Shown here one piece after another: positions 20,208-33,855 of a stretch of DNA of 64,000 bases. The translations under genes and the position numbers were made by a program. The number at the start of each line of letters is the position of its first letter. Within the stretch, counting starts at the first letter, position 1. Source of the DNA: Pararhizobium sp. A13 (lineage in GTDB: Bacteria; Pseudomonadota; Alphaproteobacteria; Rhizobiales; Rhizobiaceae). The notes under the pieces were generated by a model that did no database searches, had not been told where the DNA came from, and worked only from the letters and a program-made list of their open reading frames with translations. The stretch spans positions 969,001 to 1,033,000 of the forward strand of contig NZ_CP149510.1 in the NCBI RefSeq assembly GCF_040126305.1, in the 5' to 3' direction.

Positions 20208-21668
20208 ATGACCGTGACCTTGAAAGACCCTTCATTGTTCCGCCAGGCCGCTCTTGTCGGCGAAACCTGGATCGATGCCGACCCGAGCAACGCGATCGAG
20301 GTGAACAACCCGGCGACCGGTGAAATCATCGGCCGTGTGCCGAAGCTGGGTGCGGCCGAGACCAAGGCGGCGATCGAGGCGGCGCGGATCGCGCAGAAGG
20401 GCTGGGCGGCCCGGACCGCCAAGGAACGCTGCGCAACCTTGCGCAAGTGGTACGAGCTGATGATCGAGAACAAGGACGATCTCGGCCGCATACTGACGCT
20501 CGAACAGGGCAAGCCGCTGGCAGAAGCGACCGGCGAAATCGTCTATGGCGCGAGCTTCATCGAATGGTTCGCCGAGGAAGGCCGCCGCATCTATGGCGAC
20601 ATGATCCCCGGTCATCAGCCGGACAAGCGCATCCTGGTGATGAAGCAACCGATCGGCGTCGTTGCTGCCATCACGCCGTGGAATTTTCCGAATGCGATGA
20701 TCACCCGCAAAGCCGGACCGGCCTTCGCCGCCGGCTGCGCCATAGTCCTGAAGCCGGCGTCGCAGACACCGTTCTCGGCGATCGCCATTGCGGTTCTCGC
20801 CGAACGCGCCGGCCTGCCGAAGGGGCTGTTCAGCGTCATCACTGGCTCGGCCGCGGCGATCGGCGCCGAAATGACGTCAAACCCGGTGGTTCGCAAGCTG
20901 ACCTTCACGGGCTCGACAGAAATCGGCACCGAACTCTACAAGCAGAGCGCCCCGACGATCAAGAAGCTCGGCCTTGAGCTTGGCGGCAATGCGCCGTTCA
21001 TCGTCTTCGACGACGCCGATCTCGACGCGGCCGTCGAAGGTGCGCTGATCGCCAAGTACCGCAACAACGGCCAGACCTGCGTCTGCGCCAACCGCATCTA
21101 TGTGCAGGACGGCGTCTACGACGCCTTTGCGCAAAAACTCGCAACCGCCGTCGGCAAGCTGAAGACCGGCAACGGTTTTGACGAAGGCGTGATCCTCGGA
21201 CCACTGATCGACAAGGCAGCACTTGCCAAGGTCGAGGAGCACATCGCAGATGCAACAGCCAAGGGTGCGCGCATCCTGCAGGGCGGCAAGAAGCATGCGC
21301 TCGGCGGCACTTTCTTCGAGGCGACGATCCTCGCCGACGTCACCAAGGACATGGCGGTGGCCCGCGAGGAAACCTTCGGGCCCTTGGCGCCGCTGTTCCG
21401 CTTCACGGACGAGGCCGACGTCATCGAGCAGGCCAACGACACCGAATTCGGCCTCGCCTCCTATTTCTACGCCAAGGATCTCGCCCGCGTCTTCCGCGTC
21501 GCCGAGGCGCTGGAATACGGCATGGTCGGCGTCAACACCGGGCTGATCTCCACCGCGGAAGCGCCGTTCGGCGGCGTCAAGCTGTCGGGCCTCGGCCGCG
21601 AAGGCTCGAAATACGGCATCGAGGAATTCACCGAAATCAAATATGTCTGCCTCGGCGGCATCGCGTGA
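20208..21668 (+). CDS. gabD: NADP-type succinate-semialdehyde dehydrogenase (GabD family)
   Basis: The 486-residue protein is closely similar along its length to E. coli GabD as known from the family. Visible blocks are TLEQGKPLAEA, the cofactor segment AITPWNFPNAMITRKAGPA, the general-base loop LELGGNAPFIVFDDADLD and the catalytic cysteine in NNGQTCVCANR. The C-terminal FGGVKLSGLGREGSKYGIEEF is typical. GabD oxidises succinate semialdehyde in GABA use. Because an aldolase and sugar-acid cluster begins 160 bases downstream, it could also oxidise the glyceraldehyde or lactaldehyde formed there, but a strong terminator at 21689 separates them. It starts at ATG 20208 behind a purine-rich leader (AAAGGA). 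Confidence 0.88.
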   Translation: MTVTLKDPSLFRQAALVGETWIDADPSNAIEVNNPATGEIIGRVPKLGAAETKAAIEAARIAQKGWAARTAKERCATLRKWYELMIENKDDLGRILTLEQGKPLAEATGEIVYGASFIEWFAEEGRRIYGDMIPGHQPDKRILVMKQPIGVVAAITPWNFPNAMITRKAGPAFAAGCAIVLKPASQTPFSAIAIAVLAERAGLPKGLFSVITGSAAAIGAEMTSNPVVRKLTFTGSTEIGTELYKQSAPTIKKLGLELGGNAPFIVFDDADLDAAVEGALIAKYRNNGQTCVCANRIYVQDGVYDAFAQKLATAVGKLKTGNGFDEGVILGPLIDKAALAKVEEHIADATAKGARILQGGKKHALGGTFFEATILADVTKDMAVAREETFGPLAPLFRFTDEADVIEQANDTEFGLASYFYAKDLARVFRVAEALEYGMVGVNTGLISTAEAPFGGVKLSGLGREGSKYGIEEFTEIKYVCLGGIA

Positions 21669-21688
21669 AACTGAAACCTCTGAAATCA

Positions 21689-21720
21689 AAAGGCCGGCAG
21701 GGGGCATTCTGCCGGCCTTT
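21689..21720 (+). terminator. Rho-independent terminator after gabD
   Basis: A 12-base perfect stem (AAAGGCCGGCAG / CTGCCGGCCTTT) with an 8-base loop starts 20 bases after the gabD stop. The T run is short (TTT followed by CGATTCT). It separates gabD from the aldolase gene. Confidence 0.8.
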
Positions 21721-21828
21721 CGATTCTCCTCGCATGCCATAATTCGGGGTGCACCTGAACGGAAACCGCTTCACAGTTGGTGCATCACCGTTTTAACTAC
21801 GTCGGCAGAGCCGCAAGGAGAGACATCG

Positions 21829-22632
21829 ATGCCCGCCCCGAAAAACACGTTCAAAGCCGCGATCCGCGAGGATCGGTTCCAGTTGGGTTTGTGGGTCGCT
21901 CTGGCAAGCCCCTATGCAGCTGAAATCGTCTCGGGCAGTGGCTATGACTGGCTGCTGATCGACGGCGAACATGGGCCAAACGACATTCCGCTCTTGTCTT
22001 CGCAGGTGCAGGCGGTGGCACGCTCGGGAAGCCATCCGATCGTGCGCCTGCCGGTCGGCGAAACCTGGATGATCAAGCAGATTCTCGACACCGGGGCGCA
22101 GACGCTGCTGATCCCGATGGTTGAGAGCGTCGAACAGGCACGGGCGCTGGTCCGTGCGGTACGCTATCCGCCGCATGGCGTGCGCGGCGTCGGCGCTGCA
22201 CTTGGCCGGGCATCGCAGTTCAGCCGGATCGGCGATTATCTCGAAACGGCGAATGCGGAAATCTGCCTCATCGTCCAGATTGAGAGCCGGGCAGGCCTGA
22301 CCGCGCTTGACGACATTGCCGCGCTCGACGGGATCGACGGGTTGTTTATCGGTCCATCCGATCTCGCCGCCGATATGGGACACCTCGGCCAGCCCGGCCA
22401 TCCCGAGGTGACTGCCGCCATCAAGGATGCGTTCGAGCGGATCAGGAAAGCCGGCAAGGCCCGCGGCATCATGACCCTCAACCTTGATCAGGCGCGTCTC
22501 TATCGCGACATGGGCGCGGACTTCATGGCGATCGGAACCGATGTAACGCTTCTCGTCAGCGCCACGACGAAGCTGCGCGAGGATTTCCTGGCCGGCGGTA
22601 CAAGCAGAGCAAAGCCGGTGGCCGGCTACTGA
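21829..22632 (+). CDS. HpcH/HpaI-family class II aldolase (2-keto-3-deoxy sugar acid type)
   Basis: The 267-residue protein is a metal-dependent pyruvate-forming aldolase of the HpcH/HpaI family (like GarL, RhmA/YfaU). Visible are LGLWVALASPYAAEI, the catalytic-histidine loop LLIDGEHGPND (about residues 41-51), the substrate arginine in PIVRLPVGE, and the metal ligands in QIESRAGL and GLFIGPSDLAADMG. AAGGAG at 21815-21820 sets the ATG at 21829; a longer open frame from 21643 runs back through the gabD terminator. In this cluster it would split 2-keto-3-deoxygluconate or 2-keto-3-deoxyfuconate to pyruvate plus an aldehyde; the exact substrate is inference. Its stop directly abuts that of the convergent next gene. 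Confidence 0.88.
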   Translation: MPAPKNTFKAAIREDRFQLGLWVALASPYAAEIVSGSGYDWLLIDGEHGPNDIPLLSSQVQAVARSGSHPIVRLPVGETWMIKQILDTGAQTLLIPMVESVEQARALVRAVRYPPHGVRGVGAALGRASQFSRIGDYLETANAEICLIVQIESRAGLTALDDIAALDGIDGLFIGPSDLAADMGHLGQPGHPEVTAAIKDAFERIRKAGKARGIMTLNLDQARLYRDMGADFMAIGTDVTLLVSATTKLREDFLAGGTSRAKPVAGY

Positions 22633-23724
22633 TCATCGGTTCCCGGCGATCGCCGCAAGTTTCGGCATGGGGACGTCCGGGCTCCAGGCCCGGAAATCGG
22701 CGATCCGTCGGACAAGCTTTTCAACATGATGATTGGCGATGTCGGCAAGCTGGTGTTCGAGAAACGGATTGCGGAAGCGATCCAGCGTTAGGACCACATA
22801 ATCGGCCGCTTCCTGGCTGAGACCCTTGGCGGCAAAGCCGGGTATGACCTCGGTCTCGTAGATTTCCATCAATGCCGCGCCGACATGCGTGTCCCGCAGT
22901 ATGTTCTTCACCGTCTCGCCTTGAGGCCGGGCGGTTTTCAACCAGATATCGGCAAGCACCGTGTGGCCGAGATTGAGAATATGCAGCTTGAGCTTCTCAT
23001 AGGGCGTCAGGTCTTCGACCAGAAGCACGCACGGGTGGCTACAAGGCGCCCTCAGTCCCGGTTGGTTTTCGATGGCCCAGAGCGCATAAGGTTCCGCCAC
23101 GGCCCCGGCCGGTTCCAGCGGCTCGGAAACGATGCGGTCGACGAGGGTATTGCCCCAGACGACAGTTGTCGAAAGCCAGCTCGCGAAATCGGCGTTTTTG
23201 ATCCGCTCGGCCTGAAGGCGAAGAATTATCTCTTTGAGCCTGTCGCCATTGCGGCTGATCAGCTCGCACGGCAGCACGGTGAGCGGGCGGCCGCCCGCAG
23301 CGAAGCGGGCGTGAAGCAGGCGGATCAATTTTCCCGGAAAGGAAACGGGAATCTCCTCATCGAGATCGTCGTCTCGGATATTGTAACCCGTATCGCCGGT
23401 ATTCGAGACCAGGATCTCCGCCTCTTCCGCAATGAGCCGTTTCACCTCATCCCAATCGCGCCCCGTCGAAAGGGCGCGCGCGACGCTGGTGACATTCTGC
23501 GTGCTGTCGATCTCGACGCCGCCGGCCAGTCCGCGGATCGTGACCGGGAATCCGCCCGGCGCCGCCAGTGCGCTTAGTCGCCCGGCCCGTTCCGGCGATC
23601 CAGTCGTCTGGACCACCGTGATTTTGCCAATCGCATCACCTGTCTCCAGCGCTTCGCTGACGAAGAGATCGGCATGGGCTTGCAGAAAGCGGCTGGTTCC
23701 AAACTGGATGATCGGCGTTGTCAT
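22633..23724 (-). CDS. Mannitol-dehydrogenase-family oxidoreductase (UxaB/tagaturonate reductase-like)
   Basis: The 363-residue protein is a polyol-specific long-chain dehydrogenase. It begins PIIQFGTSRFLQAHADLF, the family nucleotide-binding start, and has SNTGDTGY and LPCELISRNGD. The catalytic K-x4-N-x2-H motif appears as KLHILNLGH near residue 245. Members act on mannitol, fructuronate (UxuB), tagaturonate (UxaB) or arabinitol. The length is shorter than E. coli UxaB (about 480). Beside a UxaA-type dehydratase and an LgoD-like dehydrogenase, reduction of D-tagaturonate to D-altronate is the best inference. It lies 19 bases downstream of the regulator gene and is probably co-transcribed with it. 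Confidence 0.82.
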   Translation of the reverse strand: MTTPIIQFGTSRFLQAHADLFVSEALETGDAIGKITVVQTTGSPERAGRLSALAAPGGFPVTIRGLAGGVEIDSTQNVTSVARALSTGRDWDEVKRLIAEEAEILVSNTGDTGYNIRDDDLDEEIPVSFPGKLIRLLHARFAAGGRPLTVLPCELISRNGDRLKEIILRLQAERIKNADFASWLSTTVVWGNTLVDRIVSEPLEPAGAVAEPYALWAIENQPGLRAPCSHPCVLLVEDLTPYEKLKLHILNLGHTVLADIWLKTARPQGETVKNILRDTHVGAALMEIYETEVIPGFAAKGLSQEAADYVVLTLDRFRNPFLEHQLADIANHHVEKLVRRIADFRAWSPDVPMPKLAAIAGNR

Positions 23725-23743
23725 GATGTGCTCGTGAATCCGG

Positions 23744-24622
23744 CTATTGAATGGATTGCAGCAGTGTCTCGCGTGCGGACTTGAGATGCCGCCGGCAGGC
23801 GGCTTCGACCTGCGCGAGGTTACGGGTCTTTAGCGCCGCGATATAGGCGAGGTGCTCCTCCAGCGCCCGGGCATTGCGTTCGCGCGCATTCGTCTTGTTC
23901 CATTGGTAATGATAGTGGAAGACGATGGCGATGATGTCGTAGAAGTCGACGATGAAGCGGTTGCTCGAGGACTTGTGGACGAGCAGATGGAAGCGTTCGT
24001 CTAGCTCGGAGAATTCGCGATAGCGGTTGTCGATGTCGGCGAGGATGTCGTGGTGCATCGTCTCGATCCGTTCCAGCTCCAGCCATGCCTGATGATCGGG
24101 ATCAAGCGCCGCAAAACTCGCGGCGGAGCGCAGCTCGAACATTTCGCGCACCTCCGTCAGTTCCAGCGCGAATTCGCGGGTAAAGCCTTTCAATATCCAG
24201 TGGCTGTTCGGCCGTTTCTCGATCAGTCCGAAGCGGCTGAAGCGGATGAGGAACTCGCGCACGCTGGTCGTGCCGGTGCCGATATCGCGCGCCAGTTCCA
24301 GCTCGTTGATCTGCATGCCCGGCTCGGCGCCGCCGGCCAGAATCCGGCGCATGAAACTGCGCTCGATGATTTCGGACAGCGAATCGGTTTCCTCGGCCGG
24401 GTAATAATCCTCGGTCTTCGGATGTCGCAGAACCACCTTTGCCCGCTTGTCCCAGGCGATCAGCTGCAGCTCTTCCATCCGCGTCAGGATCGCCCGGATG
24501 GTCGTGCGGCTGACCCCGAGCGTCGCGCCGAGCTCCGGCTCGGAGGGCAGGGCGGAGGTTTCCGCGAGCAGCTTGAGGCAGCGGTTGAAGGCGTCCTTGA
24601 AGACGGTGTTCTGTTTCGCCAT
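23744..24622 (-). CDS. GntR/FCD regulator with two winged-helix segments
   Basis: The 292-residue protein appears to have two DNA-binding regions. The first, at about residues 8-70, contains LPSEPELGATLGVSRTTIRAILTRM, a GntR-type helix-turn-helix. The second, at about residues 80-150, contains GMQINELELARDIGTGTTSVREFLIRFSRFGLIEKR, also GntR-like. A C-terminal all-helical FCD ligand domain follows, with EVREMFELRSAA, the metal-site-like ELDERFHLLVHKSS and the final HLKSARETLLQSIQ. FCD regulators usually bind sugar acids. It faces the uxaA operon across a 297-base divergent region and most likely controls this cluster. Confidence 0.85.
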   Translation of the reverse strand: MAKQNTVFKDAFNRCLKLLAETSALPSEPELGATLGVSRTTIRAILTRMEELQLIAWDKRAKVVLRHPKTEDYYPAEETDSLSEIIERSFMRRILAGGAEPGMQINELELARDIGTGTTSVREFLIRFSRFGLIEKRPNSHWILKGFTREFALELTEVREMFELRSAASFAALDPDHQAWLELERIETMHHDILADIDNRYREFSELDERFHLLVHKSSSNRFIVDFYDIIAIVFHYHYQWNKTNARERNARALEEHLAYIAALKTRNLAQVEAACRRHLKSARETLLQSIQ

Positions 24623-24832
24623 GATTTTGCCGGCCGAATAGGGGTTTCTGTCGATCGAACCGCGGATTGCTGGTTCGGTTTGTGAGGCTGCTCTATCCGG
24701 TCCGTCTGGCCCTGTCTCGGCTTGTCATCCGAAGTTTCATGGTTGTTTCGGTCCCTGATTTTGTTTTTGATGCGGTCGTTGCCTTTTTGCTGCGACCGTT
24801 CTGCTGCGTTTCTGGCGGATGCATAATACCCA

Positions 24833-24865
24833 TTGACGGCAAACTGTCTATTGTAGATAAAAGAC
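24833..24865 (+). promoter_or_regulatory. Candidate promoter/operator of the sugar cluster
   Basis: In the 24623-24919 divergent gap a TTGACG (24833-24838) is followed 15-17 bases later by AT-rich TAGATAAA. Overlapping this is an inverted repeat TCTA-TTG-TAGA (24847-24857) and the flanking GTCT...AGAC. The octamer GATAAAAG (24856-24863) recurs at 28106-28113 before the transporter gene. It is a plausible site for the adjacent regulator. The rest of the gap shows no gene. Confidence 0.4.
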
Positions 24866-24919
24866 AAAAATGAATGAGCGCGCTTGCTCAGAGAAAAGCC
24901 GTCAAGGGAGATACCAAGG

Positions 24920-26425
24920 GTGACCGCACCTTCGTTCATCGTTTTGTCGCCGGAAGACAATGTGGCCGTCGCGTCGCTCGCCATCGAGCCGGGCGGCGAA
25001 TTGCCGGATGGCGTGCGCGCCGCAGCCAGGATCGATCCCGGCCATAAGGTGGCGATCCATCCGGTTCATGCCGGCGAGCCGGTGGTGAAGTATGGACAGG
25101 CGATCGGCCGGGCGACCGTCGATATCGCGCCAGGCGACCACGTCCACTCGCACAATCTGGCCTTCGATCAGGACCGCTTGTCGATCGGCGCGCCGGTGCC
25201 GCCGGAGGCCGCGAATGCTGCCGACAAGGCACGCACCTTCATGGGCTATCGCCGCGCCGACGGCCGCGCCGCGACGCGCAATTTCATCGGCATCATCGCC
25301 AGCGTCAACTGTTCCACCACGGTCTGTCGGGCTATTGCCGAGGAGGCCAACCGGACCATCCTGCCGCGCTACGACGGCATCGACGGCTTCGTGCCGATCG
25401 TCCACGATCAGGGCTGCGGCATGAGTTCGACCGGCGACGGCATGAAGAACCTGCATCGCACGCTTGCCGGCTACACCCGCCATGTGAATTTCGGCGGCGT
25501 GCTGATGGTCGGCCTCGGCTGCGAGGTCAACCAGCTGACGCTGTACGGCCAGAGCGGTTCCGGCGCCGGAAAACGTCATTTCAACATTCAGGATGCCGGC
25601 GGCTCGCGCCGCGCCGTTGCCCTGGCGATCGGCGTACTCGAGGAGATCGCCCAGGAGGTCGGCACGGCACGGCGCATCCCGATCCCGGTCGGCGAGATCA
25701 TTGTTGGCCTGCAATGCGGCGGCTCGGACGGACTTTCGGGCATCACCGCAAACCCGGCCTTGGGAGCGGCGGTCGATATTCTGGCCGGCGCCGGCGGCAC
25801 GGCGATCCTGTCGGAAACCTCGGAGATCTATGGCGCCGAGCATCTGCTGCGCAGCCGAGCGGTCAACGAGGATGTCGCGCAGAAGCTCGACGGACTGATC
25901 TCCTGGTGGGAAAACTATGTCGAGATGCATGGCGCGTCGCTCGACAACAATCCGTCGCCGGGCAACAAGCGCGGCGGCCTGACCACCATCCTCGAAAAGT
26001 CGCTTGGCGCGGTGGCCAAGGGCGGCCGCTCGCCGCTGACCGCGGTCTATCACTACGCGGAGCGGGTGACCGAACACGGCCTCGTCTTCATGGATACACC
26101 TGGCTACGACCCCGTGTCGGCAACCGGCCAGGTCGCCGGTGGCGCCAATGTGATCACGTTCACGACCGGCCGTGGGAGCTGTTTCGGCTCGCGCCCCTGT
26201 CCCTCCATCAAGCTGACGAGCAACACGGCGCTTTATCGCGCCATGGAGGAGGACATGGATATCGATTGCGGCACCATTGCCACCGGGGATGCGACAATCG
26301 CCGGCAAGGGCCGGGAGATTTTCAACCTGATCATCGATACTGCGTCCGGAAGGAAGACCAAGAGCGAACTGTTCGGCTACGGCGACAATGAATTCGTGCC
26401 CTGGCACCTGGGCGCGACACTCTGA
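24920..26425 (+). CDS. UxaA-family altronate-type sugar-acid dehydratase
   Basis: The 501-residue protein joins an N-terminal SAF domain (HKVAIHPVHAGEPVVKYGQAIG, about residues 40-62) to the UxaA/GarD catalytic domain. The catalytic part shows RNFIGIIASVNCSTTVC, VHDQGCGMSS, VGLGCEVNQL, LQCGGSDGLSGITANPALG and the C-terminal FTTGRGSCFGSRPCPSIKLTSNT. These iron-dependent enzymes dehydrate altronate, galactarate or related acids. The GTG at 24920 lies 9 bases after AAGGGAG and is preferred over a TTG at 24884. Here the substrate is probably D-altronate (galactose route) or L-fuconate; a UxaA-like gene also occurs in the L-fucose locus of Campylobacter jejuni. It is the first gene of the plus-strand operon. 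Confidence 0.88.
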   Translation: MTAPSFIVLSPEDNVAVASLAIEPGGELPDGVRAAARIDPGHKVAIHPVHAGEPVVKYGQAIGRATVDIAPGDHVHSHNLAFDQDRLSIGAPVPPEAANAADKARTFMGYRRADGRAATRNFIGIIASVNCSTTVCRAIAEEANRTILPRYDGIDGFVPIVHDQGCGMSSTGDGMKNLHRTLAGYTRHVNFGGVLMVGLGCEVNQLTLYGQSGSGAGKRHFNIQDAGGSRRAVALAIGVLEEIAQEVGTARRIPIPVGEIIVGLQCGGSDGLSGITANPALGAAVDILAGAGGTAILSETSEIYGAEHLLRSRAVNEDVAQKLDGLISWWENYVEMHGASLDNNPSPGNKRGGLTTILEKSLGAVAKGGRSPLTAVYHYAERVTEHGLVFMDTPGYDPVSATGQVAGGANVITFTTGRGSCFGSRPCPSIKLTSNTALYRAMEEDMDIDCGTIATGDATIAGKGREIFNLIIDTASGRKTKSELFGYGDNEFVPWHLGATL

Positions 26426-26457
26426 CGGAAGCAGCCGTCGGAGGGAGGAGAGGGTTG

Positions 26458-27477
26458 ATGCAGACAAGAAGGATCGGTCGGACGGATCTGTCCGTTACCG
26501 AATACAGTTTCGGCACCGCGCCGCTGGGCGGGATGTACCGCGCCTGCCCGCGCGAGACGGCCATGGAAACGCTCGCCGCGGCCTGGGATACGGGCCTGCG
26601 GTTTTTCGATACGGCACCCTGGTATGGGTTTGGCCTGGCCGAAAGACGGGTCGGGGATTTCCTGCGGGACAAGCCCAAGGGCAGTTATGTGCTGTCGACG
26701 AAAGTCGGCCGCGTGCAGCGCCCAGTGGCAGATGACAAGGTGCCGAGCTACGGTTTCGTCAATCCGCTGCCGTTCGACACCGATTACGATTATTCCTACG
26801 ACGGGATCATGCGGTCGGTCGATTTCAGTTATGCCCGGCTTGGCCTGAACCGCATCGATGTCCTCTTCGTCCATGACATCGGGGTCTACACGCATGGCGC
26901 CGAGCGCAACCGTGTCTATCTGCGCCAACTGTTCGACGGCGGCCTCAGAGCGCTGGAGGAGCTGAAATCGAGCGGCGCCATTTCTGCCTATGGCCTGGGC
27001 GTCAATGAAGTGCCTGTCTGCCTGGATGTGATGCGAGAGGCGGATCTCGACTGCATCCTGCTTGCCGGGCGCTACACGCTTCTTGACCGCACCGCCACCG
27101 CCGAGCTTTTGCCTCTCTGCGAGAAAAAGAAAACCTCGCTGGTGGTTGGCGGCGTTTTCAATTCGGGTATTCTGGCGACGGGTCCGGTGGAGGGATCGCA
27201 TTTCGACTATATGCCGGCAAACCGGGAGGTTCTGGACAAGGTGGGTGCGCTGGAGAGGATCGCCCAGTCGCAAGGGCTGCCGCTTGCGGCACCCGCCATC
27301 CAGTTTCCTCTACAGAATCCGGTCGTTGCCTCCGTCCTGCTCGGAACGGCAAAACCATCGAGCCTGACGCGCAATATGGAATTGACGGAACGGCGCCTGC
27401 AGCCGGACGACTTCGCGCCTTACGACGCCTATACGCTGGTCGCGCCCGAATTGGGAACAGAAGCCGTTCGCGTTTAG
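26458..27477 (+). CDS. Aldo/keto reductase, L-fucose/L-galactose 1-dehydrogenase type
   Basis: The 339-residue protein is an AKR with RRIGRTDLSVTEYSFGTAPLGG at the N-terminus. Its tetrad residues are the aspartate and tyrosine of FFDTAPWYGFGLAERRVG, the lysine of VLSTKVGR and the histidine of VLFVHDIG. The overall pattern, with the PFDTDYDYSYDGIMRSVDFSYARLGL block, matches D-threo-aldose/L-fucose dehydrogenases and plant L-galactose dehydrogenase. These oxidise the anomeric carbon to the lactone with NAD(P). ATG 26458 follows GGAGGAG. It sits between uxaA and fucU, and a lactonase gene ends the operon, which supports an aldose to lactone to acid sequence. Confidence 0.87.
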   Translation: MQTRRIGRTDLSVTEYSFGTAPLGGMYRACPRETAMETLAAAWDTGLRFFDTAPWYGFGLAERRVGDFLRDKPKGSYVLSTKVGRVQRPVADDKVPSYGFVNPLPFDTDYDYSYDGIMRSVDFSYARLGLNRIDVLFVHDIGVYTHGAERNRVYLRQLFDGGLRALEELKSSGAISAYGLGVNEVPVCLDVMREADLDCILLAGRYTLLDRTATAELLPLCEKKKTSLVVGGVFNSGILATGPVEGSHFDYMPANREVLDKVGALERIAQSQGLPLAAPAIQFPLQNPVVASVLLGTAKPSSLTRNMELTERRLQPDDFAPYDAYTLVAPELGTEAVRV

Positions 27478-27501
27478 CCGGATCACGAAGGGGAAAGCGG
27501 A

Positions 27502-27948
27502 ATGCTGAAGGGAATACATCCATTGCTCGGACCGGATCTTCTGCATGCGATCCGCACAATGGGCCATGGCGACGAGATCGTGGTTGGCGACGCCAATTTT
27601 CCGGCCAGCAGCATTGGGCCGAAGGTCGTGAGGGCCGATGGGGTCGACGCCTTGAGCATCACGGAGGCGATCCTTGCCCATATGCCGCTCGATACCTTCG
27701 CCGCCGAATCCGCCTGGCGGATGGAAGTCGTCGGCGATCCGGCGGCAGAGCCGGAAGTCTGCGTCGAATTCCAGAAGCTGGTCCACAAGCTCGCCGGTAA
27801 TTTCAAGGTCGTGCCGATCGAACGTTTCGCTTTCTATGAGCGCGCGCGCAAGGCAGCCTATATCGTCGCGACCACGGAGTTTCGGCTTTATGGAAATATC
27901 ATCCTGAAAAAGGGCGTCGTTCGCCCGGAAGAACTCTACCGGGTGTAG
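27502..27948 (+). CDS. fucU: RbsD/FucU-family sugar mutarotase
   Basis: The 148-residue protein is a FucU-type mutarotase, which interconverts the alpha and beta anomers of L-fucose and other sugars. It has HPLLGPDLLHAIRTMGHGDEIVVGDANFP at the N-terminus with the catalytic histidine region, and FYERARKAAYIVATTEFRLYGNIILKKGV at the C-terminus with the FucU tyrosine motif. The length suits FucU (about 140). It lies 24 bases after the aldo/keto reductase, for which it would supply the right anomer. FucU points to a galacto-configured L-sugar as the substrate of the cluster. Confidence 0.9.
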   Translation: MLKGIHPLLGPDLLHAIRTMGHGDEIVVGDANFPASSIGPKVVRADGVDALSITEAILAHMPLDTFAAESAWRMEVVGDPAAEPEVCVEFQKLVHKLAGNFKVVPIERFAFYERARKAAYIVATTEFRLYGNIILKKGVVRPEELYRV

Positions 27949-28098
27949 GGCCTGCACATACCCGGCCCATGGAGGTGGGACGGTCATCTTCGCGATGGAA
28001 AACAAAGGCTTGGCGTTGGGAGAAAATCAATGCGCAAGGACAGAGCCCGCCGCTTGCAATTTCGAAATTGCTGAGATAGCTTGCCTGCGTAAAATGTT

Positions 28099-28112
28099 TT
28101 TTATCGATAAAA
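28099..28112. promoter_or_regulatory. Perfect 14-base palindrome, candidate operator
   Basis: TTTTATCGATAAAA lies in the 237-base gap between fucU and the sugar-binding-protein gene, 73 bases before that start. Its right half plus one base (GATAAAAG) is also at the uxaA promoter. The gap suggests a second, regulated promoter for the transporter genes. Confidence 0.45.
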
Positions 28113-28185
28113 GGTCGAACTGTTCGCGTCTTGCGGCTCGATCCGAGGAGAACTCAACAAGACGCTGTTGGAGGAGAACAACACC

Positions 28186-29175
28186 ATGACCCTTATGAAG
28201 CATATCCTGACGCGCCGCGCCTTCACCAGCCTCGCTGGCGCAGCCGTGTTCGCGACCATGATGCCGATGACATCGTTCGCTCAGGACGTCACCATCCCGA
28301 TCATCGTCAAGGATACGACGTCCTTCTACTGGCAGATCGTTCTGGCTGGCGCCCGCGCTGCCGGCAAGGATCTCGGCGTCAATGTGCCGGAACTCGGCGC
28401 GCAGGCCGAATCCGACATCAATGGCCAGATCAGCATTCTTGAAAACGCCGTTGCCGGCTCGCCGGCCGCCGTTGTCATCTCGCCGACGGAATTCAAGGCG
28501 CTTGGCAAGCCCATCGACGAAGCTGCCAAATCCGTGCCGATTATTGGGATCGACTCGGCCGCTGATTCCAAGGCCTTCAGCTCGTTCCTGACGACGGACA
28601 ACACGCAGGGTGGCCGTATCGCCGCCGACGGCCTCGCTGCCGCAATCAAAGAAGCAACCGGAAAGGAAGAGGGCGAAATCGCCATCATCACCAACCTGCC
28701 GGGCGTCGGCTCGCTGGATCAGCGCCACAATGGCTTCATGGAACAGATCGCCGCGAAATATCCGGGCCTGAAGGTCGTCGCCGACAAATATGCCGACGGC
28801 CAGGCGACTACCGGCCTTAACATGATGACCGACCTGATCACGGCGAACCCGAACCTCGTCGGCGTCTTTGCTTCCAACCTGATCATGGCGCAGGGCGTTG
28901 GCCAGGCGATCGCTGAAAACAAGCTCGGCGACAAGATCAAGGTCATCGGCTTCGACAGCGATGAAAAGACGGTTGGCTTCCTCAAGGAAGGCGTGCTCGC
29001 CGGCCTCGTCGTCCAGGATCCCTATCGCATGGGCTACGACGGCGTCAAAACCGCGTTGGCCGTCTCCAAAGGCGAGAAGGTCGAGGCCAATGTCGATACC
29101 GGCGCCAACCTCGTGACCAAGGCCAACATGGCTGATCCGAAGATCGACGCCCTTCTGAACCCGAAGGTCAACTGA
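28186..29175 (+). CDS. Periplasmic sugar-binding protein of an ABC importer (RbsB type)
   Basis: The 329-residue protein starts with a signal peptide, MTLMKHILTRRAFTSLAGAA, followed by a hydrophobic stretch and cleavage near SFAQD. The TRRAFT motif resembles a twin-arginine signal. The mature part is a two-lobed periplasmic-binding-protein fold of the RbsB class: IPIIVKDTTSFYWQIVLAGARAAG, ISILENAVAGSPAAVVISP, IIGIDSAADSKAFSSFLTTDN and IKVIGFDSDEKTVGFLKEG. ATG 28186 follows GGAGGAG by nine bases; a TTG at 28168 was not used. It is the first gene of the importer and is followed by a strong hairpin. The ligand is inferred to be L-galactose, L-fucose or a relative. Confidence 0.9.
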   Translation: MTLMKHILTRRAFTSLAGAAVFATMMPMTSFAQDVTIPIIVKDTTSFYWQIVLAGARAAGKDLGVNVPELGAQAESDINGQISILENAVAGSPAAVVISPTEFKALGKPIDEAAKSVPIIGIDSAADSKAFSSFLTTDNTQGGRIAADGLAAAIKEATGKEEGEIAIITNLPGVGSLDQRHNGFMEQIAAKYPGLKVVADKYADGQATTGLNMMTDLITANPNLVGVFASNLIMAQGVGQAIAENKLGDKIKVIGFDSDEKTVGFLKEGVLAGLVVQDPYRMGYDGVKTALAVSKGEKVEANVDTGANLVTKANMADPKIDALLNPKVN

Positions 29176-29185
29176 TCCAAGACAG

Positions 29186-29227
29186 GGCGGCAGGACAATA
29201 CCCGTTTGGGTCAACTGTCCTGCCGCC
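29186..29227 (+). terminator. Large intercistronic hairpin after the binding-protein gene
   Basis: A perfect 12-base stem (GGCGGCAGGACA / TGTCCTGCCGCC) encloses an 18-base loop that itself contains ACCC-GTTT-GGGT. It begins 11 bases after the binding-protein stop. There is no T run, so it may act as partial attenuator or 3' RNA-stabilising element, keeping binding protein more abundant than the membrane parts. Confidence 0.6.
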
Positions 29228-29307
29228 TGCTGCACAATGCGCTCTCGACCTGCTTCAGCCCGAAACATCGGTTTGAGGCAGGTTTTTGGATAGGGAGGAA
29301 AGCCGCC

Positions 29308-30861
29308 ATGACAGGACTTTACGACGTCAGCCACCGGCACGAGGAGGGCGCGGCGACGGTTGCCAGGCATCCCGTTCCCAGGGGGCAGCCGATCCTGGAA
29401 CTGCGCGGCCTGCAGAAGAAATACGGTGCCGTCGAGGCCTTGAAGCCGGCCAGCTTGACGTTCCTGTGCGGCGAAATCCACGCCATCGTCGGCGAAAACG
29501 GTGCCGGTAAGTCGACGCTGATCAAGCTTTTGACCGGTGTTATCCGGCGAACGTCCGGCGAGGTTTTCTGGTGCGGCGAACCCGTTCAGCTTTCGAATCC
29601 GACGGAAGCGATCGCACGCGGCATCAATGCCGTCCATCAGGAAGTCGTGCTCTGCCCGCATCTGAGTGTCGCCGCCAATATGTTCCTCGGTGACGAGATG
29701 AACAAGAACGGCCTGATGCGCAAGCGGGCCATGACCGATGCGGCGCAGGCCGTGCTCAACGATCTCGGCTTCAACCTTCCGGCGGCTGCCATTCTTTCCA
29801 GCCTGACGATCGGCCAGCAGCAGCTCGTTGCTACGGCGCGCGCTGCAATGCGTGGCACGCAGTTTCTGATTTTCGACGAGCCGACCGCCTATCTGACCCG
29901 CCAGGAATCGGCGCAGCTATTCCGGCTCATTCGCCGGCTTCAGGCCGAAGGCGTGACCATCGTCTATATCAGCCATCGCATGGAAGAAGTCTTCGAACTC
30001 GCCGATCGCGTTTCGGTCCTTCGCGACGGCACTCATGTTGGCACCCGCAAGATCAGCGAGACCAACGATGCCGAGCTGATCGCGCTGATGATCAACCGCA
30101 CCATCGAACAGATCTACCACAAGGAAGCCCTGCCGATCGGCGCCACCATCGTCGAAACGCGCGGTCTTACCGGCCCCGGTTTCGAGGATGTCTCGCTGTC
30201 GGTGCGCGCGGGCGAAATCGTCGGCCTTTATGGTCTGATCGGTGCAGGTCGCAGCGAATTCGCGCTCGGGCTCTATGGCCGCCAGCCGGTGACATCGGGC
30301 GAAATTTACTGGGAAGGCAAGAAGGTCGAGATCCGCAACGAACGTCAGGCGATGGATCTCGGCATTGCGCTGGCGCCGGAAAGCCGCCGCGACCAGGGGC
30401 TCTGCCTCAATCTGCCGATCGGCCTCAACATCAACCTGCCGGTGTTCGACCGGCTGACGAGCGGTTTCACCATCAACCGTCGCCGCGAGATCGAAAACGC
30501 CGACCGGCAGATCAAGGACCTGAAGATCAAGACGCCGACGCGCCGGGTGCTGGCGTCCGCCATGTCCGGCGGCAACCAGCAAAAGATCGTCATCGGCAAG
30601 TGGCTCAGCCACGGCGCCAAGCTGTTCATTTTCGATGAGCCGACCGTTGGCGTCGACGTCGGCACCAAGGCGGAAATCTACCGATTGTTTGCCCGGCTGC
30701 TGGAGCAGGGGGCAGGCATCATCCTGATCTCGTCCTATCTGCCGGAGGTCTACGAGCTTGCCGACCGGCTGCATGTGTTCCGACAGGGAAAACTCGTGGC
30801 CAGCCACAGCTATCGCGGCGGCTCGCACGAGGACGTGCTGACCCAGGCGATCGGCGTTTGA
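29308..30861 (+). CDS. Sugar ABC importer ATPase with two nucleotide-binding domains (RbsA type)
   Basis: The 517-residue protein has two tandem ABC domains. Domain 1 has Walker A VGENGAGKSTLIK, a degenerate signature LTIGQQQL and Walker B FLIFDEPTA. Domain 2 has the degenerate Walker A LIGAGRSEFA usual for this family, signature MSGGNQQK and Walker B FIFDEPTVGVD. It energises uptake with the RbsC-type permease downstream. ATG 29308 follows GGGAGGAAAG. A longer open frame starts at 29206 but lies within the hairpin region. Spacing to the permease is 42 bases. Confidence 0.93.
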   Translation: MTGLYDVSHRHEEGAATVARHPVPRGQPILELRGLQKKYGAVEALKPASLTFLCGEIHAIVGENGAGKSTLIKLLTGVIRRTSGEVFWCGEPVQLSNPTEAIARGINAVHQEVVLCPHLSVAANMFLGDEMNKNGLMRKRAMTDAAQAVLNDLGFNLPAAAILSSLTIGQQQLVATARAAMRGTQFLIFDEPTAYLTRQESAQLFRLIRRLQAEGVTIVYISHRMEEVFELADRVSVLRDGTHVGTRKISETNDAELIALMINRTIEQIYHKEALPIGATIVETRGLTGPGFEDVSLSVRAGEIVGLYGLIGAGRSEFALGLYGRQPVTSGEIYWEGKKVEIRNERQAMDLGIALAPESRRDQGLCLNLPIGLNINLPVFDRLTSGFTINRRREIENADRQIKDLKIKTPTRRVLASAMSGGNQQKIVIGKWLSHGAKLFIFDEPTVGVDVGTKAEIYRLFARLLEQGAGIILISSYLPEVYELADRLHVFRQGKLVASHSYRGGSHEDVLTQAIGV

Positions 30862-30903
30862 GATCGTGAAAAGACCAGAAGAAAATATGCGTGGAGGAAA
30901 ATC

Positions 30904-31878
30904 ATGACCGTTGAAGCGACGACAGAAGCGGCACCAGTGCCGAAAAGGGGCATGAACATCCTGTTCGGCCTGACTTTGCTTGGCCTTCTCTTGTTCCTCT
31001 GGCTGGTTCTGGGCATCGCCACAAACAGCTTCTGGACCCCGAACAACATCAGCAACCTTTTGCGGCAGGGGGCGATGACAGCCATTCTCGCCGTCGGGCA
31101 GACCTTCGTCATCATCACCGCCGGCATCGACCTCTCCGTCGGTGCGGTGGTCGGTTTCGCCAGTGTCGCGGTCGCCTGGCTGCTCGCCGCTGGTGTGCCG
31201 CTCTGGCTGGCGATGATCATCACGCTGCTGATCGGCGTGCTGATCGGCGCGTTCCACGCTTTCGGCATCGTGCGCATGGGGCTTCCGGCGTTCATCATCA
31301 CGCTGGCGACCTTGACGTCGCTGCGCGGCATCGGCCTTCTGATCACCAACGGTTCGACGATCTCGATCAGCAACGAGGCTTTCACGAATTTCTCGCGCGC
31401 CGATTTCCTCGGCGTTCCCAGCCTGTTCTGGATGGTTATCGTCGTCGCCATCCCCGCCTATGTCTTCCTTCACTTAAGCCGTTGGGGCCGCTATCTCTTC
31501 GCCGTCGGCTCCAACAGCGAAGCGGCGCGTCTCTCCGGCGTCAACGTCAACCGGACGATCTATCTTGCCTATATCCTCTCCTCCACTTGCGCTGCCTTTG
31601 TCGGCCTGCTGCTTGCCTCGCGCATCGGCATCGGCAACGCCACCCAGGCGGAAGGCTGGGAACTGCAGGCGATCGCTTCCTCAGTCATCGGCGGTACCAG
31701 CCTGTTCGGCGCGGTCGGTTCGGTGCAGGGCCCGCTGCTGGGCGCCTTCATCCTGGCGACGATCAACAACGGCGCCAACCTTCTGAACGTCAACTCGTTC
31801 TGGCAGCGCATCATTACCGGCGCGCTGATCATCGTCATCGTCTACTTCGACCAGCTGCGCCGCCGCGGCTCGCGCTGA
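30904..31878 (+). CDS. Sugar ABC importer permease (RbsC type)
   Basis: The 324-residue protein is an integral membrane permease of the ribose/xylose/galactose family. Hydrophobic helices run throughout, beginning ILFGLTLLGLLLFLWLVLG. Family motifs include QTFVIITAGIDLSVGAVVGFASV, VRMGLPAFIITLATLTSLRGIG, RYLFAVGSNSEAARLSGVNV and the EAA-like VIGGTSLFGAVGSVQGPLLGAFI. It forms a homodimeric channel with the ATPase encoded just upstream. A 97-base gap with GC-rich sequence separates it from the zinc dehydrogenase gene. Confidence 0.93.
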   Translation: MTVEATTEAAPVPKRGMNILFGLTLLGLLLFLWLVLGIATNSFWTPNNISNLLRQGAMTAILAVGQTFVIITAGIDLSVGAVVGFASVAVAWLLAAGVPLWLAMIITLLIGVLIGAFHAFGIVRMGLPAFIITLATLTSLRGIGLLITNGSTISISNEAFTNFSRADFLGVPSLFWMVIVVAIPAYVFLHLSRWGRYLFAVGSNSEAARLSGVNVNRTIYLAYILSSTCAAFVGLLLASRIGIGNATQAEGWELQAIASSVIGGTSLFGAVGSVQGPLLGAFILATINNGANLLNVNSFWQRIITGALIIVIVYFDQLRRRGSR

Positions 31879-31975
31879 TCGTCTGCTCCCCCATCCGGCT
31901 GGTTCCGATCCGGCCGGATGCTCCTCGGAAGCCTGTTCCCAACCTGTTGCGGAAGATTACAAGGAACTGCCTGCC

Positions 31976-32995
31976 ATGAAAGCGGCGATCTGCCTGGAGC
32001 CCGGGCGCCTCGACATCATTGACCGACCGGTATTGCCGGTGCCGCCGAAGGGCTGGGCACGGCTTGCAGTCAGCCATGTCGGCATTTGCGGAACCGATTA
32101 TCATATCTTCGAAGGCAAGCATCCCTACCTCGAATATCCCCGCGTCATGGGTCACGAGATCTCTGCGCGAGTGATCGAATCCGGGCAAGGAGTTTCGCTG
32201 GAACCGGGAACCCCTGTTATCGTCAATCCCTATCTTTCCTGCGGAACCTGTGTCGCCTGCCGCAAGAACAAGCCGAATTGCTGCACGGCGATCAAGGTTC
32301 TCGGCGTGCACACCGACGGTGCCTTCTGCGAAGAGATCCTGGTGCCGCAGGGCAATCTTTATCCGGCTGGCGACCTGTCGTTGGAGGCGGCGGCGACCGT
32401 CGAGTTTTTGGCGATCGGCGCCCATGCCGTGCGCCGTTCGCTCGCTCCGGCCGGATCGCGGGCGCTGGTCATCGGGGCCGGACCCATCGGCCTTGGCACT
32501 GCATTGTTTTCGCGTATCGCCGGCCATGAGGTAACGCTGCTCGATGCGAGCGTTGAGCGGCTGGACATGGCAGCGGATCGGCTTGGATTTACGCACGGCA
32601 TTCGTGCTGGTGACGGCGCCTTGGATGCGGTGCTGGCGGTGACAGGCGGTGATGGCTTCGATGTTGTCTTTGACGCCACCGGCTTCGGCGGTTCGATGGA
32701 AAAGTCCTTCGCCTTCGTCGCCCATGGCGGCTGCCTGGTCTTCGTCAGCGTCGTCAAAGACGACATCCGGTTCTCGGATCCGGAGTTCCACAAGCGCGAA
32801 ATGATGCTGGTCGGCAGCCGCAATGCGACGCGCCAGGACTTCGAGCATGTCGCCGCCTCGATCCGCGCCGGTCGTGTGCCGGTCGAAGCGCTGATCACGC
32901 ATCGCACGACGCTAAATGATGTGGTGAATGACCTGCCGCGCTGGGCACATGAGAAGGCAGGATTGATCAAAGCCGTGGTGCAGGTGTCGCCATGA
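31976..32995 (+). CDS. Zinc-dependent alcohol dehydrogenase, L-galactonate 5-dehydrogenase-like
   Basis: The 339-residue protein is a medium-chain dehydrogenase. Catalytic zinc ligands appear in VGICGTDYH and RVMGHEISA. The structural zinc lobe is CGTCVACRKNKPNCC (about residues 89-103). The NAD-binding loop is LVIGAGPIGLG (about residue 163). Its closest recognisable family is the LgoD (YjjN)/sorbitol/threonine dehydrogenase group. LgoD oxidises L-galactonate to D-tagaturonate, and with UxaB-like and UxaA-like enzymes in the same cluster this is the preferred role, but sequence alone does not fix the substrate. The stop overlaps the lactonase start (ATGA). Confidence 0.85.
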   Translation: MKAAICLEPGRLDIIDRPVLPVPPKGWARLAVSHVGICGTDYHIFEGKHPYLEYPRVMGHEISARVIESGQGVSLEPGTPVIVNPYLSCGTCVACRKNKPNCCTAIKVLGVHTDGAFCEEILVPQGNLYPAGDLSLEAAATVEFLAIGAHAVRRSLAPAGSRALVIGAGPIGLGTALFSRIAGHEVTLLDASVERLDMAADRLGFTHGIRAGDGALDAVLAVTGGDGFDVVFDATGFGGSMEKSFAFVAHGGCLVFVSVVKDDIRFSDPEFHKREMMLVGSRNATRQDFEHVAASIRAGRVPVEALITHRTTLNDVVNDLPRWAHEKAGLIKAVVQVSP

Positions 32996-33855
32996 CGCGT
33001 ATCGACGCGCATCAACACTATTGGACGCTGGGCCTAGGCCACAACGACTGGCCGCCGCCGGAGCTTGCGCCGATTTACCGGGATTTCACGCCGGATGATC
33101 TGATGCCGCATCTGGCGGCAGCGGGCATCACCAAAACCGTGCTCGTCCAGGCGGCACCCAACCTGGCGGAGACCGAGTTCCTGCTTGAATTGGCGCAGTG
33201 TGAAGAAACCGTCGCCGCCGTCGTTGGGTGGGTGGACGTGTGGTCGCCAACGGCGCGTTCCGATCTGGAGCGGTTCAAGCTCCATCCGAAGTTCCGGGGA
33301 ATCCGTCCGATGCTGCAGGGCATCGAGGATGCGTTTTGTATTCTTCAGCCCGAGGCGATCCGCACGCTCGAGATGCTGCCGGACCTTGGCTTGCGCTTCG
33401 ATGCGCTTGTCCAACCGCGCCACCTGCCGGTGATATCGGCGCTCGCTGACCGCTTGCCCTCCCTGCCGATCGTTGTTGATCACGGAGCAAAACCGTTCAT
33501 TGGCAAAGGAATCCTCGAGCCCTGGCGCGCTGACATGGCAGCGCTCGCCCGGCGGCCGAATGTCTGCGTCAAGCTCTCCGGACTGGTGACCGAAGCGGGG
33601 AGCGGTTGGACGGTCGACGAGCTGAAACCCTATGCAGGCTATCTGATCGAGATTTTCGGACCGCAGCGCGTCATGTTCGGCAGCGACTGGCCGGTTGTTA
33701 ATCTCGATGCAAGCTATGAGCAGTGGTGGCTGGCTGCAAACGAACTGCTGCGGAACCTCGACGAAAGCGCGCGCCAGGCTGTTTTCCGCACGAGCGCGGC
33801 GCGCTTCTACGGGATTGATCTTGAAGGGCAGGTTCGGGCAAGCGGCTTTACCTAG
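32992..33855 (+). CDS. COG3618 amidohydrolase, L-fucono/L-galactono-lactonase type
   Basis: The 287-residue protein is an amidohydrolase-superfamily TIM barrel. It begins RIDAHQHYW, with the paired histidines, and has FRGIRPMLQG, LPIVVDHGAKP and the C-terminal FGSDWPVVNL carrying the catalytic aspartate. COG3618 contains L-fucono-1,5-lactonase and L-rhamnono-lactonase, some of which also open L-galactono-lactone. It would hydrolyse the lactone made by the aldo/keto reductase. The ATG overlaps the zinc dehydrogenase stop, so the two are coupled. It is the last gene of the cluster; a 185-base gap without recognised signals leads to phaZ. Confidence 0.88.
   Translation: MTRIDAHQHYWTLGLGHNDWPPPELAPIYRDFTPDDLMPHLAAAGITKTVLVQAAPNLAETEFLLELAQCEETVAAVVGWVDVWSPTARSDLERFKLHPKFRGIRPMLQGIEDAFCILQPEAIRTLEMLPDLGLRFDALVQPRHLPVISALADRLPSLPIVVDHGAKPFIGKGILEPWRADMAALARRPNVCVKLSGLVTEAGSGWTVDELKPYAGYLIEIFGPQRVMFGSDWPVVNLDASYEQWWLAANELLRNLDESARQAVFRTSAARFYGIDLEGQVRASGFT

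Follow-up and report, generated by a model that had tools for sequence, protein, structure and literature searches.

Does the block of sugar-catabolic genes at positions 20208–33855 of a 64,000-nucleotide stretch of Pararhizobium sp. A13 DNA (contig NZ_CP149510.1; the whole stretch is here called the window) encode one pathway or two, and for which sugars? The initial annotation had read the genes between 21829 and 33855 as a single route from L-galactose to pyruvate in which every gene had a task. Our analyses upheld the part of that interpretation which concerns galacto-configured L-sugars and argued against one L-galactose route for all of the genes: the operons that carry palindromes do not include the aldolase, KdgK and Eda are encoded elsewhere, the ligand of the orthologous binding protein is L-fucose, and the commonest arrangement in relatives (20 of 56 loci) lacks the aldolase, the UxaB-like gene, FucU and the lactonase. 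We instead favour, with moderate confidence, a dual catabolic cluster for L-galacto-configured sugars that serves both L-fucose and L-galactose. The evidence fits a fusion of two modules having a common entry, made up of importer, mutarotase, aldo/keto reductase (AKR) and lactonase, and probably also one dehydratase in common.

From the genes present, their conservation, the palindromes and the orthology of the binding protein, we infer the following substrates, order of reactions and regulation. The ATP-binding cassette (ABC) importer would take up L-fucose, the binding of which is known for its Sinorhizobium meliloti orthologue, and probably also L-galactose, whereupon FucU, AKR and lactonase would convert the sugars to L-fuconate or L-galactonate. 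L-Galactonate would be oxidised at C5 to D-tagaturonate by an LgoD-like zinc dehydrogenase (ZnDH), reduced to D-altronate by a short UxaB-like enzyme and dehydrated by UxaA to 2-keto-3-deoxygluconate (KDG), which KdgK and Eda, encoded elsewhere, would finish via 2-keto-3-deoxy-6-phosphogluconate (KDPG). The same UxaA would dehydrate L-fuconate to 2-keto-3-deoxy-L-fuconate, from which the HpaI aldolase would release pyruvate and L-lactaldehyde, with the neighbouring aldehyde dehydrogenase predicted to oxidise L-lactaldehyde to L-lactate. A GntR regulator would act on two palindromes and thereby on the gntR-uxaB, uxaA-akr-fucU and importer-lgoD-lactonase operons, with the aldolase and the aldehyde dehydrogenase presumably escaping its control.

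Gene content of the cluster

All of the genes listed in the initial annotation were found as intact open frames within 21829–33855. Three features had been absent from it: the aldehyde dehydrogenase gene at 20208–21668, the short form of the UxaB-like protein and the operator-like palindromes. The features are the following.

20208..21668, plus strand: aldehyde dehydrogenase, NADP-type, succinate-semialdehyde-dehydrogenase-like (NF008415, 857.1 bits, cut-off 828)
21829..22632, plus strand: HpcH/HpaI class II aldolase (TIGR02311, 371.3 bits, cut-off 368.8)
22633..23724, minus strand: short UxaB-like reductase of the mannitol dehydrogenase family (NF002969, 212.3 bits, cut-off 359)
23744..24622, minus strand: GntR/FCD regulator (PF07729, PF00392), a putative role
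24846..24865, no strand: operator-like palindrome GTCTATTGTAGATAAAAGAC, between gntR-uxaB and uxaA-akr-fucU
24920..26425, plus strand: UxaA/GarD-family dehydratase (PF20629, 338.8 bits; PF04295; SAF)
26458..27477, plus strand: AKR, with PDB matches that are L-galactose dehydrogenases
27502..27948, plus strand: FucU-type mutarotase, RbsD/FucU (PF05025; NF011949, 126.8 bits, cut-off 141)
28096..28115, no strand: operator-like palindrome GTTTTTTATCGATAAAAGGT, upstream of the importer operon
28168..29175, plus strand: CUT2 periplasmic binding protein, RbsB-like, SMc02774 orthologue
29308..30861, plus strand: CUT2 sugar ABC transporter ATPase (start inferred; synteny and L067 annotation)
30904..31878, plus strand: ABC transporter permease (91% to L067)
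31976..32995, plus strand: LgoD-like MDR zinc dehydrogenase, ZnDH (38.7% to Escherichia coli LgoD)
32992..33855, plus strand: COG3618-like lactonase, Amidohydro_2 (best PDB match 4dlf; NF052480, 198 bits, cut-off 400)

Family calls for ten cluster proteins were made with Pfam and NCBIfam. The ABC ATPase and permease lay outside those scans and were identified by tblastn and by synteny with the annotated S. meliloti locus (L067). The aldehyde dehydrogenase passed its curated cut-off, as did the HpaI aldolase, narrowly. For UxaA, a GTG start at 24920 is predicted from the sequence, the queries having begun at 24929, and for AKR an ATG start is predicted, the queries having used a TTG at 26455. 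The complete order is gyrB, nitroreductase, aldehyde dehydrogenase, HpaI, UxaB-like (minus strand), GntR (minus strand), UxaA, AKR, FucU, binding protein, ATPase, permease, ZnDH, lactonase and polyhydroxyalkanoate (PHA) depolymerase, of which the nitroreductase was named by homology to L067 and the PHA depolymerase after its name there. The host genome comprises 6.36 Mb in three contigs, with the window in contig C1, and the nearest named relatives at the locus were Rhizobium giardinii H152 and R. herbae HU44 (AKR 96% and 95%, respectively; gyrB 98%).

Importer and sugar-oxidising entry enzymes

The window binding protein shows 90% identity with that of L067 and 86% with Agrobacterium radiobacter Arad_9553, whose structure, 4rxt, presumably contains D-arabinose. 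By residue matching the L067 protein is SMc02774, because the published core of the latter (Q33-N329) fits Q33 and N329 of the L067 protein exactly and the published Lys10, Arg148, Asn199 and Gln245 fall on its K42, R180, N231 and Q277. The equivalents of these ligand contacts in the window protein (K48, R186, N237 and Q283) were invariant across 25 aligned sequences, and the window orthologue thus has the contact residues of an SMc02774-type L-fucose-binding protein. According to PMC3454389, L-fucose induces SMc02774 4.2-fold and is bound by it with a dissociation constant of 3.6 nM; 'L-galactose' appears there once, as part of '6-deoxy-L-galactose'. The only measured ligand of a close orthologue of the binding protein is L-fucose. 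For a structure search we used a second model of the binding protein (predicted local distance difference test score, pLDDT, 87.5), the first, single-sequence model (pLDDT 40.9) having been discarded. Matches of the ATPase in PADLOC were set aside and taken as shared ATPase motifs.

All of the five best PDB matches of AKR, with E values from 2.4e-27 to 4e-21, bear the name L-galactose dehydrogenase, and the protein carries the DTAPWY, KVG and HD motifs. This closeness to solved L-galactose dehydrogenases makes it a candidate L-galactose/L-fucose 1-dehydrogenase. A 50% relative of AKR is located in a FucD/SDR/FAH cluster of the L-fucose type in Ruegeria, and in two annotated regions (H18 and H20) an AKR was present without the remaining cluster genes. 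FucU belongs to its family (PF05025) and fails the L-fucose mutarotase model (NF011949). The lactonase likewise fails the L-fuconolactonase model (NF052480), and, with 4dlf as its best PDB match (E 5.5e-38), it is proposed to act as an L-galactono-/L-fucono-lactonase. Two more FucU-family genes of the host genome (G000:C2:2276 and G000:C1:1568351) each lie a few kb from another sugar ABC transporter. Taken together, the orthology of the binding protein and the AKR matches lend support to the uptake and oxidation of galacto-configured L-sugars as initially suggested.

From L-galactonate to 2-keto-3-deoxygluconate

Aligned over its full length, the ZnDH shows 38.7% identity with LgoD of E. coli (236 bits), which is annotated as an L-galactonate oxidoreductase, as compared with 29% with RspB (132 bits). 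It has the CGTD, GHE and Cys-cluster motifs and scores 169.8 bits with NF007489 (cut-off 376). On these features it resembles an LgoD-type enzyme and is proposed to be an L-galactonate 5-dehydrogenase. The UxaB-like protein is 30% identical to E. coli UxaB, with 127 bits as compared with 87 for YdfI and 80 for UxuB. It is a short form of 363 residues (E. coli UxaB has 483), and together with eight aligned relatives it stops approximately 120 C-terminal residues early, with the K...N..H motif (KLKLHILNLGH) retained. The tagaturonate reductase model NF002969 scored best among the ten models listed, though below its cut-off, and we propose the protein to be a D-tagaturonate reductase.

UxaA can be assigned to the UxaA/GarD dehydratases at the level of the family; with the galactarate dehydratase model TIGR03248 it scores 373.7 bits, below the cut-off of 730.85. 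Its four cysteines (128, 163, 198 and 263 of the query) were kept in all of the 12 aligned sequences, a number equal to the four conserved cysteines that the accessible text of PMC6336799 gives for the family. In the host genome UxaA is the sole GD_AH_C gene, and a query with enolase-type FucD brought up no more than a partial match (29% across 132 residues of the query, E 7.8e-8), in a search that covered the UxaA and FucD classes of dehydratase and not IlvD/EDD and others. UxaA is therefore the sole L-fuconate candidate among the two classes searched, and because there is no FucD and only one UxaA, it may serve both sugars, as a proposed D-altronate dehydratase and, by elimination, also a proposed L-fuconate dehydratase. 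A quick tree built from 37 UxaA proteins joined the window clade (15 proteins) to Thioclava and L093 with 99% support in the Shimodaira–Hasegawa-like approximate likelihood ratio test (17 rows) and placed Martelella UxaA in a different clade, which also contains UxaB/ZnDH-type members; the tree favours an altronate role without proving it. Other UxaA relatives (47–56%) were found in quite different gene contexts, and the family therefore seems broad in substrate.

A KdgK-like gene (38%, E 1.7e-54) and a KDPG-aldolase-family (Eda) gene (E 1.2e-67) were found in the genome, both outside of the cluster. KDG would therefore need no HpaI aldolase.

We surveyed 297 genomes of the order for ZnDH and found matches with E 1e-75 or better at 55 places in 47 genomes, the window being one of these places. 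The 54 others are related and not independent, and for three of them the stretch on one side falls short of 7.5 kb; within that distance there were ABC genes at 39, GntR at 29, UxaB-like at 16, UxaA at 14, AKR at 11 (one with only 25% identity) and UxuA/UxuB at seven. On plasmid p4 of Thioclava (L176), a tripartite ATP-independent periplasmic (TRAP) importer is encoded together with GntR, ZnDH, UxaB-like, UxaA and a sugar kinase, which is the set expected if L-galactonate itself were imported. Transposase genes of an insertion sequence family flank this compact candidate L-galactonate operon on both sides, and the plasmid is predicted to be mobilizable. Because ZnDH resembles LgoD, because it pairs with UxaB-like (16 of 54) and because of the Thioclava operon, the L-galactonate-to-KDG route appears likely, and the LgoD/UxaB/UxaA steps of the initial annotation were in this respect supported.

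Aldolase and aldehyde dehydrogenase

The HpaI aldolase is proposed to be a 2-keto-3-deoxy-L-fuconate aldolase, and the aldehyde dehydrogenase, a cluster member by synteny only, to oxidise L-lactaldehyde; the two fit better with an L-fucose branch than with KDG. Among 61 genomes of the family (its own included), AKR of at least 66% identity was found in eight and HpaI of at least 68% in six, and in all six the HpaI gene lay within 4 kb of the AKR gene and adjoined the aldehyde dehydrogenase gene. The six top matches of the aldehyde dehydrogenase came from these same six genomes, with HpaI next door in each; there were 11 matches in all, and the remaining five (71–84%) had no cluster genes in their 3.4–4.5-kb stretches.

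Two other accounts of this gene pair were rejected. HpaI and GabD could be a 4-hydroxyphenylacetate pair, as the models were passed, but HpaI of at least 68% occurred only beside the cluster in the 61 genomes, and the idea is kept only as part of the L-galactose-only alternative given below. GabD could also be a plain neighbour of gyrB; viewed from the aldehyde dehydrogenase matches only, and not from gyrB of cluster-free genomes, the five matches in genomes without a close HpaI lack gyrB, nitroreductase and HpaI nearby, a location away from gyrB that fits a link of GabD to the cluster. A 12-bp inverted repeat (21689–21720) separates the HpaI gene from that of the aldehyde dehydrogenase; it is terminator-like, though absent from the terminator scan list.

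Operator-like palindromes

A 20-bp palindrome, idealised as GTCTTTTATCGATAAAAGAC, occurs at 24846–24865 and 28096–28115. With up to three mismatches allowed, the window gave four matches (two sites, both strands) as compared with 0.06 expected, and genome-wide these two were the only mismatch-free palindrome sites. The genome scan gave 14 matches as compared with nine in the backward control, and most matches with three mismatches are therefore due to chance. A third palindrome with two mismatches (G000:C1:1829740), near frames judged by eye to be LysR-type regulator- and chemotaxis-like, was set aside. In 18 of 20 related loci inspected, the motif precedes the gene for UxaA, for AKR or for the binding protein; it was not seen in L060 and L114, and L035 and L067 have none before their importer genes. 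The Thioclava operon is preceded by the motif at 29.0 bits, the best of 20 shuffled windows reaching 14.0 bits. The model was trained on 16 distinct sites from related loci, one of them identical to the first window site, the model score of which is thus not independent, a point that affects neither the genome-wide count nor the shuffle control.

A leftward promoter-like match shares bases of its -35-like hexamer with the palindrome at 24846; shuffled sequence yields such matches at least as often (3.1 expected as compared with 2 found). The three presumed operons behind the palindromes contain every gene on the earlier list except the aldolase, and the GntR/FCD protein is the probable repressor of these operons.

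Conservation of the cluster across relatives

We found 63 named loci with AKR and judged the 56 full-length ones, excluding seven shorter; genes were counted within 8 kb of AKR at an identity of at least 40%. This comparison of synteny in rhizobia, which had been proposed together with the initial annotation, showed most of the cluster to be conserved. GntR was present in 55 of the 56 loci, the binding protein in 54, ZnDH in 48, UxaA in 45 and FucU in 29, followed by HpaI and the aldehyde dehydrogenase in 23 each (exactly the same loci), UxaB-like in 18 and the lactonase in 10. The association of these genes is not due to chance. All of the 18 loci with UxaB-like also have UxaA, ZnDH and HpaI. 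The commonest arrangement, mostly from Mesorhizobium, has UxaA and ZnDH, and that of Shinella daejeonensis (L035) has the aldehyde dehydrogenase, HpaI, GntR, AKR, FucU and the importer, without UxaA or ZnDH.

In Paracoccus seriniphilus the lactonase, UxaB-like, AKR, GntR, importer, ZnDH and UxaA occur in altered order, consecutive genes of Variovorax encode UxaA, the aldehyde dehydrogenase and HpaI, and Martelella has UxaA with AKR, SDR, FAH and an L-rhamnose-type mutarotase, which is a set of the L-fucose type. On plasmid pMM593 of Martelella mediterranea (L177), this set lies between polyketide synthase and non-ribosomal peptide synthetase genes. An SDR gene follows ZnDH in L036 (16592–17314), L044 (16596), L095 (14669–15391) and L097 (12902), and one is present also in L060 and L066; UxaA is missing from these loci, and their SDR proteins are 61–66% identical to the SDR of the Ruegeria L-fucose cluster. 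Pfam analysis of twenty chosen uncharacterised frames from loci missing cluster genes revealed no alternative sugar-acid dehydratase. Close importer and ZnDH orthologues without AKR, UxaA or UxaB-like nearby were seen in L098, L101, L104, L108, L109 and L111, with an SMP-30-like lactonase and an RraA-like protein near L101. Distant ZnDH relatives (48–49%) adjoin UxuA and/or UxuB homologues in L134, L135, L141 and L146–L148, which suggests an L-gulonate-type variant of the oxidise-reduce-dehydrate scheme.

Weighing the alternatives

Several findings weigh against a dual cluster. Of the 44 loci that combine UxaA with ZnDH, only 18 have UxaB-like and 26 lack it, four loci (L035, L036, L095 and L097) have HpaI, AKR and FucU but no UxaA, and 20 of the 54 ZnDH places are without UxaB-like, UxuAB, UxaA and AKR within 7.5 kb. 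UxaB-like, FucU, lactonase, UxaA and ZnDH all score below the cut-offs of their best NCBIfam models. The window UxaA is nearer to E. coli GarD (37%, 301 bits) than to E. coli UxaA (34%, 253 bits), and the nearest E. coli enzyme is therefore not altronate dehydratase. The 68% bound for HpaI, like the 66% bound for AKR, was set after the lists had been seen, and four HpaI places of 61–63% lie away from any AKR of at least 66%. The motif scan revealed no palindrome upstream of the aldolase or the aldehyde dehydrogenase, which are therefore tied to the cluster by synteny and not by the GntR regulator. In distant relatives the palindrome is weak (19.2 bits in Paracoccus L069 and 15.4 bits in L121), and in Roseibium L068 and L133 none of at least 12 bits was found. 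S. meliloti may have a further main L-fucose system; none was found in the literature searched. The top inducers of SMc02774 given in the accessible part of PMC3454389 were D-fucose (6.7-fold) and pyruvate (4.9-fold), neither of which was bound.

The alternative that survives best, though we consider it unlikely, is a regulon for L-galactose only, ending in KDG, with the aldehyde dehydrogenase and HpaI having another job, such as in an aromatic-acid or sugar-acid route. The lack of a palindrome before either gene, the inverted repeat between them, the passing of the curated succinate-semialdehyde dehydrogenase and HpaI models, and the UxaA and ZnDH clusters without both genes (of the Mesorhizobium type and in some Rhizobium; L027, L030 and L031) would agree with it. 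It would leave unexplained that the six HpaI matches of at least 68% are all found beside the cluster, that the orthologous binding protein takes L-fucose at nanomolar level, that FucU is present and that Variovorax groups UxaA with the aldehyde dehydrogenase and HpaI.

Dehydration might also come first, which we regard as improbable. UxaA would then act on L-galactonate, giving 2-keto-3-deoxy-L-galactonate, and on L-fuconate, whereupon ZnDH and UxaB-like would invert C5 of the keto-deoxy acid to yield KDG, or the aldolase would cleave this acid into pyruvate and L-glyceraldehyde. One stereochemical substrate class would in that case be enough for the single UxaA, and clusters with UxaA and ZnDH lacking UxaB-like are common, as given above. 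PMC6336799 describes a D-arabinonate dehydratase of the UxaA family with weak activity towards L-galactonate, D-altronate and L-fuconate; a homologue is there called an L-galactonate dehydratase on the strength of its gene context and of unpublished data. Against this order, ZnDH resembles LgoD, which is annotated for L-galactonate itself, UxaB-like and its Paracoccus relative best fit the tagaturonate reductase model, below cut-off, and some ZnDH relatives pair with UxuB/UxuA, in the pathway of which oxidation and reduction come before dehydration.

Very unlikely, finally, is a cluster for L-fucose (and D-arabinose) only, with ZnDH and UxaB-like in side reactions or acting on another hexonate, since the measured ligand, the fit of FucU and HpaI and the few genes retained in S. 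daejeonensis would suit it but ZnDH is found in 48 of the 56 loci, within the presumed palindrome-bearing importer operon, and Thioclava has an independent operon of ZnDH, UxaB-like, UxaA and kinase.

Within the favoured dual cluster, we tentatively propose a more specific version, about which we are more doubtful than hopeful: UxaA would be a true two-pathway enzyme for D-altronate and L-fuconate, and one GntR regulon and one nanomolar importer would feed two routes, L-galactose passing via C5 inversion and KDPG and L-fucose via direct dehydration and aldol cleavage, with D-arabinose perhaps also entering the latter. The fused modules would then still be separate in Thioclava L176 (L-galactonate only) and S. 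daejeonensis L035. L-Fucose and L-galactose are found in plant cell-wall polymers and glycoproteins, and using both could bring a root-associated bacterium carbon in the rhizosphere. If true, the shared dehydratase would show how two sugar pathways come together at a single promiscuous enzyme and a single repressor, and rhizobial annotations such as GabD, HpaI, 'altronate dehydratase family' and 'aldo/keto reductase', as in the S. meliloti record, would be corrected.

Comparison with known systems

Phocaeicola (Bacteroides) vulgatus reportedly has an L-galactose pathway encoded by BVU_0219-0225. By description, and not by sequence, the window shares with it an AKR-type L-galactose dehydrogenase, an L-galactonate dehydrogenase and the intermediates D-tagaturonate, D-altronate and KDG; it differs in having an ABC importer, FucU, a short UxaB, the GntR palindromes and the added HpaI/aldehyde dehydrogenase branch. 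A 2019 study by Watanabe reportedly concerns promiscuity of the UxaA family in these pathways.

The accessible text of PMC12632266 names BVU_0219 and BVU_0222 and describes lguABCDEF of Luteolibacter LG18, which takes L-galactose to KDG via tagaturonate and altronate, citing the Bacteroides and E. coli pathways and grouping the first LG18 enzyme with the L-galactose dehydrogenases of plants and BVU_0219. The LG18 locus has the same intermediates and an RbsD-family gene. Unlike the window, it has the lguR activator, the KDPG aldolase lguE and a pyrophosphate-using KDG kinase, and it also degrades L-glucose; the HpaI branch and an L-fucose importer are window features, neither of them reported for LG18 in that text (PMC12632266).

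Non-phosphorylating L-fucose routes are defined in the available part of PMC11199699, where route 1 is FucM-FucA-FucB-FucC-FucH, a set of mutarotase, dehydrogenase, lactonase, dehydratase and aldolase like that of the window. The window dehydratase is of UxaA type and not, as in route 1, of enolase type. Moreover, the route 1 dehydrogenase is an SDR, where the window has an AKR, and the route 1 aldolase of Campylobacter jejuni is of the dihydrodipicolinate synthase type, where that of the window is of HpaI type.

The rhizobial combination was not described among the matches listed from open-licence PubMed Central, subscription literature being outside that scope. Its parts are shared with S. 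meliloti, which has an orthologous importer and AKR (SMc02772-SMc02775; accessible text of PMC3454389) and, in strain Ak57, the order gyrB-gabD-hpaI-gntR-uxaA-akr-ABC-ZnDH. UxaB-like, FucU and the lactonase are present in the window and absent from the S. meliloti locus. The window cluster is hence a new combination of known parts and not a new kind of system.

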